Origin: a bacterium
GTDB lineage: Bacteria > UBP6 > JAFGXH01
Length of the DNA stretch: 34,158 nucleotides
Reading direction: 5' to 3'
NCBI GenBank assembly: GCA_027064085.1
Contig: JAMOQH010000144.1
Coordinates: 1 to 34,158 of the forward strand
Part shown: positions 1,675 through 32,441 of the stretch, piece by piece
How positions within the stretch are numbered: position 1 is the stretch's first letter
Layout: each line of letters opens with the position of its first letter
Translations under genes and position numbers: made by a program
The notes under the pieces: model-generated
The model's input: the letters and a program-made list of their open reading frames with translations, nothing else
What the model was told of the DNA's origin: nothing
The model's database searches: none

Positions 1675-1770
1675 GTTTTCACTTAGGAGGTACTTTTGAG
1701 CTATAACTCATTTGAAGTCGGCCAGTACCTCTACATAAAAAGCGTGGTTTTCACTTAGGAGGTACTTTTG
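1675..1770 (+). repeat. 24-bp direct repeat pair carrying a Shine-Dalgarno and TTG start
   Basis: A 24-bp sequence occurs identically at 1675-1698 and 1747-1770. Each copy contains ACTTAGGAGGTACTTTTG, meaning a strong ribosome site plus a TTG start. The second copy starts the dehydrogenase-like gene; the first starts a 20-codon ORF. The 8-mer GAGGTACT (1687-1694 and 1759-1766) is complementary to AGTACCTC at 1724-1731, so the middle strand can pair with either copy. Confidence 0.85.
1696..1758 (+). CDS. Possible leader peptide ORF (20 codons)
   Basis: TTG at 1696 has a perfect AGGAGG five bases upstream and opens a 20-residue frame (MSYNSFEVGQYLYIKSVVFT). It stops at TAG 1756-1758, inside the AGGAGG of the next gene. 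Codons such as GTC, GGC, CAG, TAC, CTC and GTG are richer in G and C than in neighbouring genes. The overlap of its stop with the downstream ribosome site suggests translational coupling or attenuation. It could also be a by-product of the sequence duplication. Confidence 0.35.
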   Translation: MSYNSFEVGQYLYIKSVVFT

Positions 1771-2832
1771 GATATTTTTGACACAATGAAAAAAACTAAA
1801 TCTAAAGAAGTTTTATTCTTTGATGAACCTAAAGTTGGATTAAAGGCTATTTTAGCAATTAATAATACTACTCTTGGGCCGGCATTATGTAGTTGTAAAT
1901 TATATTGTTACAAGTCTAATGATGAAGCTATTGATGATGCTCTTAAAATTGCAAAATATAATACTTATAGGTCGGCATTGAGCAGAAGAGATATCGGGGG
2001 GGGAAGCATTATACTGCTCGGTGACCCTGAAAAAGTAAAATCAGAGCAATATTTTAGAGCTTTAGGGGTTTTTATTGATAAATTAAAAGGGAAAGTTTTT
2101 GTTGTTTCTGAATCGGGAGTAACAGATGAAGATTTACTAGATTTACAAAGAGAAACAGAGTTCGTTTTAGGATTACCTGAAATTTATGAGGGTAGTGGTG
2201 ATAGAGCAACTAAAACAGCTAAAGGTGTTTTGTGGGGAATGAAGGCTGCCGCAAAAGAAAAATTTGGTGATATGAGCTTAAAAGATTTAAGAATATCGGT
2301 AAGAGGTGTTGGCTATGTTGGTAAACAGTTAGTTAAAGAATTACTTAATGAAGGAGCAAGTGTTACCATAACGGATAAAGTTTATGATAAAATAAAGGAA
2401 GTTCAAGATTTGTATCCAAGCATTAAAGTTGTTAAACCAAACGAATTATACAAAGAGAAATGTGATATTTTTGCTCCTTGTGCTTTTGATAATTCAATTA
2501 CATCTGAAGAAGCTAAAGAAATGCAATGTTCTATTATTGCAGGAAGTACCAATTGTGCTATTTCAGATAAAAAAGCTCTTAAAATATTAACAGATAAGGG
2601 GATATTAGTATTACCTGGATATTTGATTAATAGTGGTGATGTTATTCAAGTTTCTAATGAATTGGATGGCTATAGCATAGAAAAAACAAATTCTGAATTA
2701 AAATCAATTTATTATAGAACTTTAAATATTTTACAAAAGGCAAAGGAAGAAAAAAGATTTATTTCTGATATAGCAATAGAAGAAGCTGAAAATTACATTA
2801 AAGAGATTTCTTATATTAAAAGTTTAAGGTAG
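1768..2832 (+). CDS. Leucine dehydrogenase-like protein lacking catalytic residues
   Basis: 354 residues, TTG start with AGGAGG five bases upstream; ATG at 1786 is an alternative. The whole length aligns with the Glu/Leu/Phe/Val dehydrogenase family. It has a GPAL motif at 37-40, GGG at 77-79 followed by LLGDP, a Rossmann G-V-G-Y-V-G near 180-185, an APCAFDN stretch, AGSTN, and LPGYLINSGDVI. In leucine dehydrogenases the MTYK Lys68 and GGGK Lys80 bind and act on the substrate, with Asp115 as partner. Here those aligned positions are Arg68, Ser80 and, by the A-E-D versus S-E-S alignment, Ser116. The nucleotide domain looks intact, so oxidative deamination is doubtful and a binding or other reaction is possible. 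A G8 run encodes the GGG motif. It lies 8 bases before a butyrate kinase gene, as bcd precedes buk in the Bacillus bkd operon. Confidence 0.85.
   Translation: MDIFDTMKKTKSKEVLFFDEPKVGLKAILAINNTTLGPALCSCKLYCYKSNDEAIDDALKIAKYNTYRSALSRRDIGGGSIILLGDPEKVKSEQYFRALGVFIDKLKGKVFVVSESGVTDEDLLDLQRETEFVLGLPEIYEGSGDRATKTAKGVLWGMKAAAKEKFGDMSLKDLRISVRGVGYVGKQLVKELLNEGASVTITDKVYDKIKEVQDLYPSIKVVKPNELYKEKCDIFAPCAFDNSITSEEAKEMQCSIIAGSTNCAISDKKALKILTDKGILVLPGYLINSGDVIQVSNELDGYSIEKTNSELKSIYYRTLNILQKAKEEKRFISDIAIEEAENYIKEISYIKSLR
1996..2003 (+). repeat. G8 homopolymer inside the dehydrogenase-like gene
   Basis: Eight consecutive G encode Gly77-Gly78 and the start of Gly79 of the dehydrogenase-like protein. Long G runs are prone to slippage and are striking in this AT-rich DNA. 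Confidence 0.9.
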
Positions 2833-2840
2833 GTAATGAT

Positions 2841-3923
2841 ATGAATAAGAAAAAGAAAAAAGATTACTTAATTTTAACTATAAATCCAGGCTCAACATCT
2901 ACTAAAATAGGTGTTTTTAAAAATGAAAAGAGTATTTTTGAAACAACAGTAATGCATTCAGTTAAACTTCTTGAAGAATATGATAAAATATGGAATCAAT
3001 ATTCATTTAGAAAGCATGAAATTATTGAGGAATTAGAAAAAAATAATATTTCAATAAAAGAACTAGATGTTGTTGTTGGGCGAGGTGGATTATTTAAGCC
3101 TATAGAGTCTGGTGTTTATATAGTAGATGAAAACATGATAGAAGATGCAAGAATTGGAGTTCAAGGTGAGCATGCATCAAATTTGGGGTGTGTCATTGCT
3201 TACGGAATCGGTTGGGATTATGATATTCCTGCTTATATTACTAATCCTCCTTCTGTCGATGAACTTGAGGATATTGCTAGAATTTCTGGTAATAAAGAAA
3301 TAACTAGAAATAGTATATTTCATGCTCTCAATGTTTTTGCAACTGCTAGGATTTATGCAAGGGATAATAAAACTAATATAAAGGATATTAACTTAATTGT
3401 TGCTCATTTAGGTGGAGGAATAACTGTTACTGCATTACAAAAGGGTAGGGCAATAAATGTTAATAATGGTCTTGATGAAGGGCCGTTTTCCCCTCAAAGG
3501 TCAGGAAAGTTACCATTGTTTAAATTAATAGATTTAGCATATTCAAATAAATTAACTAAAAAACAGCTCAAAAAAATGATAGTGGGTAATGGTGGATTCG
3601 CTTCTTATTTTGATACTAATGATGCTAGAAAAATTGAAAAATTTGCTAATGAAGGGAAGTCTGAATATAAAAAAATATTTGAGGCTATGGCATATCAAAT
3701 TGCAGAAGAAATTGGATCTCGTGCAACAAATTTAAAAGGGCGGGTTGATGCTATTGTTTTAACCGGTGGCCTTGCGTATAGTAAATTACTCATTGAATTA
3801 ATTAAAACTAGAGTTAGTTTTATTAGTGAAATTGCAGTTTATCCTGGAGAAAATGAGTTAAAAGCTCTTGCCATGGGTGGTTTAAGAGTATTAAAAGGTG
3901 AAACTATTCCTAAAAAGTATTGA
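2841..3923 (+). CDS. buk: Butyrate (branched-chain fatty acid) kinase
   Basis: 360 residues, close to the usual ~355. It belongs to the acetokinase family (ASKHA fold) and would interconvert butyryl- or isobutyryl-phosphate and ADP with the acid and ATP in the cytoplasm. Diagnostic motifs are NPGSTSTKIG (about 15-24), GRGG, the butyrate-kinase GEHASNLG, HLGGGITV, EGPFSPQRSG and TGGLAYS. No phosphotransbutyrylase gene is seen beside it. The gene follows the dehydrogenase-like gene by 8 bases with ribosome site GGTAGG, so the two are probably cotranscribed. In bkd operons this kinase makes ATP from branched-chain acyl-CoA, which fits the neighbour's ancestry even though that neighbour looks catalytically altered. 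Confidence 0.95.
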   Translation: MNKKKKKDYLILTINPGSTSTKIGVFKNEKSIFETTVMHSVKLLEEYDKIWNQYSFRKHEIIEELEKNNISIKELDVVVGRGGLFKPIESGVYIVDENMIEDARIGVQGEHASNLGCVIAYGIGWDYDIPAYITNPPSVDELEDIARISGNKEITRNSIFHALNVFATARIYARDNKTNIKDINLIVAHLGGGITVTALQKGRAINVNNGLDEGPFSPQRSGKLPLFKLIDLAYSNKLTKKQLKKMIVGNGGFASYFDTNDARKIEKFANEGKSEYKKIFEAMAYQIAEEIGSRATNLKGRVDAIVLTGGLAYSKLLIELIKTRVSFISEIAVYPGENELKALAMGGLRVLKGETIPKKY

Positions 3924-21572: not shown

Positions 21573-21836
21573 GTAGAGACGAGGCATGTAGAGACAAGGC
21601 AATGCCTTGTCTGTTGATGCAGTGAAAAGATATGGAATTTATCTTTTGATATGATGTTGGAATTGAGACGAGGCATTGCCTCGTCTGTTGATATAATGAA
21701 AGATGGGTGTTTTTCATCTTTTGATATAATGTTGGAACCGAGACGAGGCGGTGCCTCGTCTGTTGATATAATGAAAGATGGGTGTTTTTCATCTTTTGAT
21801 ATAATGTTGGAACCGAGACGAGGCATTGCCTCGTCT
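21573..21836. repeat. 75-bp tandem palindromic array between sufB and sufC
   Basis: A 21-bp palindrome of the form AGACRAGGC-NN-TGCCTYGTCT occurs at 21592-21612, 21666-21686, 21741-21761 and 21816-21836, at 74, 75 and 75-base spacing; a partial copy is at 21573-21587. The central bases vary (AA, AT, GG, AT) while the arms stay paired. Each intervening stretch has a second hairpin, AAAGATG...CATCTTT, flanked by TGATATAATG. The 75-base unit equals 25 codons, so a frame stays open through it into sufC. Confidence 0.92.
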
Positions 21837-21851
21837 GTACGAGGAGAGGGA

Positions 21852-32311: not shown

Positions 32312-32441
32312 CTACAAACTACAAACTACAAACTACAAACTACAAACTACAAACTACAAACTACAAACTACAAACTACAAACTACAAACTACAAACTACA
32401 AACTACAAACTACAAACTACAAACTACAAACTACAAACTAC
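32312..32441 (+). repeat. (CTACAAA)18 heptanucleotide tandem tract
   Basis: CTACAAA is repeated 18 times without error from 32312 to 32437, then continues as CTAC. Forward translation in any frame gives the same seven codons (L-Q-T-T-N-Y-K) with no stop. An ATG at 32303 opens a frame that runs through all copies into the exported protein behind it. Confidence 0.97.

Follow-up and report, generated by a model that had tools for sequence, protein, structure and literature searches.

A leucine dehydrogenase-like protein family with an altered active site, mostly encoded beside Ptb and/or Buk

Introduction

Can a protein that has the fold of a leucine dehydrogenase (LeuDH), and other residues in place of the catalytic ones, still be an amino-acid dehydrogenase, and if not, what might it do beside a butyrate kinase (Buk)? 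This question was raised by a gene in a stretch of bacterial DNA of 34,158 nucleotides, here called the window. An initial annotation, made from the sequence alone, had proposed that the fold was kept and the chemistry lost, with three possible roles (pseudo-enzyme, regulator or catalyst of a new reaction), and this proposal is supported by the alignment and by the selected clade of relatives described below. The protein and its relatives are referred to as LDHx. They probably represent an undescribed LeuDH-derived family with a rebuilt active site (N65/R68/S80/D-E290, and YD[KR]IK at the nucleotide end), which either senses a ligand and controls the step of phosphate butyryltransferase (Ptb) and Buk, or runs a new reaction in branched- or short-chain acid fermentation.

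The gene and its fold

Features of the window are listed in Table 1. The gene, annotated as a LeuDH homologue free of frameshifts and stops, was indeed an intact open reading frame, starting with TTG with AGGAGG close upstream. Its top relatives in the PDB were leucine dehydrogenases (36–37% identity to 6acf and 1leh, E ~1e-67 to 1e-70), and it matched the ELFV (Glu/Leu/Phe/Val) dehydrogenase superfamily with PF00208 (71.2 bits, cut-off 23.4) and PF02812 (34.7 bits, cut-off 25.3). The highest-scoring NCBIfam profile was NF035922 (tryptophan dehydrogenase ScyB) with 255.6 bits, below the curated cut-off of 600, and neither Pfam nor NCBIfam has a named entry for the family. An AlphaFold2 model, for which the input was an alignment of the window and locus sequences, reached a pLDDT of 93.3 and a pTM of 0.91, and was aligned by Foldseek over the whole chain to LeuDH 8gxd with a TM-score of 0.91.

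Table 1. Positions and strands of features in the window
Feature	Positions	Strand	Remarks
24-bp perfect direct repeat, copy 1	1675..1698	+	GTTTTCACTTAGGAGGTACTTTTG; includes ribosome-binding site
Possible leader ORF, 20 codons	1696..1758	+	TTG ... TAG, LSYNSFEVGQYLYIKSVVFT; stop overlaps LDHx ribosome-binding site
24-bp perfect direct repeat, copy 2	1747..1770	+	contains LDHx ribosome-binding site and TTG start
LDHx, LeuDH-like protein without Lys80	1768..2832	+	354 aa; R68, S80, E115, N65, D291 (= LeuDH G290), YDKIK motif 206-210
Butyrate kinase (Buk)	2841..3923	+	360 aa; 8 nt downstream of LDHx; second Buk of the genome; without ABC_sub_bind
75-bp tandem repeat, 3.3 copies	21591-21838		between sufB-like and sufC-like genes
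Cys-rich lipoprotein-like protein, 1416 aa	26014-30264		93-bp coding repeats; MopE-like CDGxDNDCDG repeats; RCC1-like repeats at end
CTACAAA heptamer, 18.6 copies	32312-32441		error-free

Upstream of the gene, both repeat copies carry AGGAGG and TTG, and the repeat was found nowhere else in the genome. Between the copies lies GTACCTC, which is able to pair with the LDHx ribosome-binding site. The region is possibly a leader peptide or a duplicated start region; its RNA fold was no better than that of shuffled sequences (z -1.0), and an Rfam scan of the window gave no match.

Active-site residues

Residue numbers follow 1leh and were checked against the PDB sequence. In LeuDH, the catalytic sites are K80 and D115; the carboxylate is recognised by K68 and N262, and the pocket lining includes G42 and M65 (PMC8766677). 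The N-terminal domain of the window protein aligned to that of 1leh without gaps, which bore out two of the replacements read in the initial annotation, Lys68 to Arg68 and Lys80 to Ser80. The third, Asp115 to Ser116, was off by one: G108-R-Y-I-T-A-E-D115-V-G117 of LeuDH pairs gaplessly with G108-K-V-F-V-V-S-E115-S-G117 of the window protein, so that Asp115 stands opposite Glu115, a conservative change. Further pocket changes were G41G42 to CS, M65 to N, N262 to C, D283 to G and G290 to D, and no alignment restored a lysine at the catalytic position.

Across the 35 members of the clade, position 80 was always Ser, Ala or Gly and never Lys. Position 115 was Asp in none, and Ser, Gly or Asn in 32; position 68 was Arg in 31 and Lys in four. 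N262 was variable, and G41G42, near-invariant in ordinary LeuDHs, occurred in no member. Among 41 ordinary LeuDH-type sequences, chosen without requiring the GGGK pattern, K68 and D115 were present in all and K80 in 39. The two that have lost K80 are Bacteroidota LeuDHs outside the clade, L072 (genome G364) with GGGN and L079 (genome G714) with GGGY; both keep K68 and D115, and their losses are separate from that of the LDHx clade. New invariants were found in the LDHx cleft, namely N65 (35/35) and Asp or Glu at position 290 (35/35), together with Y206-D207-[K/R]208 (35/35), the beginning of the YD[KR]IK motif common to the clade.

The NAD half had been annotated as conserved. This holds for D203, G180 and G185, present in 35/35 members, so that NAD may still bind in most of them, but not for the whole of the Rossmann site, where four members carry Asp in place of G182, the second GxGxxG glycine, and N262 is not constant. 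With substrate and NAD site lists drawn partly from general knowledge, the NAD-site columns of the clade were no more constrained than random columns (p 0.22) and the substrate columns gave a p of 0.06, whereas in ordinary LeuDHs both sets were far above random conservation (p<0.0001). Many of the clade invariants lie outside the active site: Y206-D207-[KR]208-I209-K210-Q213-D214 just past Asp203, and Y342 and K350 near the C-terminus. Such a pattern of constraint would suit a role in binding or interaction better than catalysis at the old site, and new chemistry is also possible.

Distribution and selection

Searches of ~800 genomes and one exact-word scan of named genomes yielded 35 LDHx proteins from 34 genomes, belonging to the window's family and several uncultured Bacteroidales families. 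Profile matches were obtained in the other two genomes from the window's family and in 13 genomes out of 295 sampled from a Bacteroidales-type order; when coverage was taken family by family, LDHx was present in every sampled genome (21/21, 4/4, 3/3 and 2/2). When 395 genomes were drawn evenly from that phylum, 153 ordinary LeuDH-like matches were obtained, and the clade appeared only in one genome already known to carry it (G062). The exact 8-mer scan, with the window protein as query, is insensitive and returned two relatives, in MAGs labelled Bacteroidales and Draconibacterium; the other relatives came from profile searches.

In the tree, the 33 full-length LDHx proteins formed one branch with support 100/100 on a long stem (1.34 changes per site), the window's family branching first and the Bacteroidales members after. 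In close pairs, dN/dS was 0.03–0.14, indicating strong purifying selection. Of seven comparisons with the adjacent ptb, six gave the lower value to LDHx, and in both comparisons with buk the values were close. The initial annotation had held that absence of the substitutions in close relatives would speak for random decay, and had looked to genomes for a clade sharing R68/S80 next to buk. That clade exists, with R68 in 31/35, Ser, Ala or Gly at position 80 in 35/35 and an adjacent Ptb and/or Buk in 31/35. Random decay is not the explanation, because the substitutions are common to one monophyletic clade under purifying selection, mostly beside ptb/buk.

Gene neighbourhood

Ptb converts acyl-CoA to acyl-phosphate, and Buk converts acyl-phosphate to a short or branched fatty acid with formation of ATP. 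In the bkd operon of Bacillus the gene order is ptb-bcd-buk. The butyrate kinase of the window retains its motifs, as had been annotated, scoring 479 bits with TIGR02707 and aligning along its length to Buk2 (1x9j/1saz). Ptb lies directly upstream of LDHx in 19 members and Buk directly downstream in 16; four members have neither as a neighbour, two of them at contig ends. Around ordinary LeuDH genes, ptb or buk was found within 1.5 kb at 0/39 loci. The order ptb-LDHx-buk is that of ptb-bcd-buk in Bacillus, suggesting in-place conversion of an active bcd to LDHx; the sister LeuDH, expected among Firmicutes if the clade came straight from the ptb-bcd-buk operon, was not resolved by the tree.

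The Buk of most relatives carries a fused C-terminal ABC_sub_bind domain (PF04392), giving a protein of ~655 aa; the window Buk is unfused. These fusions of a kinase to a ligand-binding domain were seen at loci L056, L057, L031, L032, L062-L068, L128, L130 and L144, and no description of a Buk fused to a periplasmic-binding domain was found in open-licence literature. In a large Bacteroidales subgroup, a Porin_10 gene comes after ptb-LDHx. At one locus (L131, 2045-4401), a PLP aminotransferase-like gene precedes LDHx in place of ptb. The window genome has no ptb adjacent to the LDHx/Buk pair; a separate ptb-buk pair lies beside hutI on another contig, and the genome also has a pta-ackA pair and a single true GDH, and lacks a lysine-bearing LeuDH.

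Interpretation

Loss of conserved catalytic residues, a kept fold and purifying selection, the marks of a pseudoenzyme, are found together in LDHx, and its residues make amino-acid dehydrogenase activity very unlikely. We give about even chances to the reading that LDHx is a pseudoenzyme derived from LeuDH that senses a ligand and acts at the Ptb/Buk step. It would then derive from an ordinary bcd gene; its modified cleft would bind a pathway metabolite (a branched-chain amino, keto or acyl compound, and/or a dinucleotide), and the protein would contact Ptb or Buk and tune the formation of acyl-phosphate or ATP. A branch point controlled by a ligand would be in keeping with the frequent fusion of Buk to the ABC_sub_bind ligand-binding domain. 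What counts against a regulator of Ptb/Buk is that the window Buk has neither a fused domain nor an adjacent ptb, and that four members have neither gene adjacent. The pseudoenzyme reading is also opposed by the fixation of N65, D/E290 and, in 31/35, R68 in the cleft, since an enzyme with new chemistry would show the same, and by the retention of D203 and G180/G185 in 35/35, with which most members may still bind NAD.

The chief rival is such an enzyme, catalysing a new NAD-dependent reaction; we rate it as less likely than the pseudoenzyme. Its rebuilt cleft (N65, R68, S80, D/E290 and Q293) would provide new acid/base groups, and its substrate might be, for example, a branched-chain keto acid, aldehyde or acyl compound feeding Ptb/Buk. 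The invariant or nearly invariant cleft residues, the retention of D203, G180 and G185 throughout and the strong purifying selection would all suit it, but constraint on the substrate and NAD columns has fallen to near background, four members have Asp for G182, N262 varies, and position 115 is variously E, S, G or N.

It is unlikely that LDHx acts as the regulatory subunit of mixed oligomers with an active LeuDH or GDH of the same cell, in the manner of GdhA/GdhB of Thermus (PMC9570180). Beyond that precedent, a true GDH was found in 19/19 clade genomes examined, and a lysine-bearing LeuDH-like paralogue is kept in several, some of them Bacteroidales; however, a lysine-bearing LeuDH is missing from the window genome (G000) and from two others (G001 and G002), where there is only a distant GDH, and the gene neighbourhood indicates Ptb/Buk and not a dehydrogenase as the partner. 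Still more doubtful is a slow but active amino-acid or amine dehydrogenase that tolerates the loss of K80. LeuDH mutated at K80 retains 1.5% of its activity (PMC12018205), and the engineered LeuDH K68S/N261L is an amine dehydrogenase (PMC8766677), hence loss of K68 alone is not fatal, but the engineered enzymes keep the K80 and D115 that 35/35 LDHx proteins lack. LDHx as a natural amine dehydrogenase was rejected on the loss of these two residues. A decaying pseudogene or assembly artefact, as loss of catalytic residues taken alone would suggest, is scarcely credible against 35 homologues, dN/dS of 0.03–0.14 and presence in all sampled genomes of the families covered.

Pfam-based annotation would label LDHx proteins as Glu/Leu/Phe/Val dehydrogenases and so credit their hosts with a deamination step that is probably absent. 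If LDHx is a regulator, it would point to ligand control of butyrate and branched-acid fermentation at the step of acyl-phosphate and ATP; if it is an enzyme, it would mean new chemistry on the leucine-dehydrogenase scaffold.

Comparison with known systems

With leucine dehydrogenase (bcd; 1leh, 6acf, 8gxd and 8hr6), LDHx shares the fold (TM 0.85–0.91), a full-length alignment at 36–37% identity, the Rossmann Asp203 and the GxGxxG. As with bcd of Bacillus, it sits between ptb and buk. Unlike LeuDH, it has lost K80, D115 and G41G42, has mostly Arg for K68 and a variable N262, carries the changes M65N, D283G and G290D/E, ends ~10 residues earlier at the C-terminus and forms a separate clade.

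ScyB (NF035922) and LDHx both belong to the LeuDH-type family, but LDHx proteins score 208–256 bits against the cut-off of 600, and an ordinary Bacteroidota LeuDH scores 414. The engineered amine dehydrogenases (PMC8766677) resemble LDHx in the replacement of K68, and only they keep the catalytic K80 and D115. No description of a LeuDH pseudoenzyme, or of a LeuDH relative with ptb/buk in Bacteroidetes, was found in open-licence literature.

The closest functional parallel to the proposed role comes from Thermus thermophilus, where GdhA is an inactive regulatory subunit of GDH (PMC9570180). Like LDHx as proposed here, GdhA belongs to the Glu/Leu/Phe/Val dehydrogenase superfamily but is inactive as a catalyst and serves in regulation, so that a change of this kind has an earlier precedent in the superfamily. 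The two differ in their partners: GdhA works with its active paralogue GdhB, whereas LDHx is encoded beside Ptb/Buk, in the window genome without an active LeuDH paralogue.
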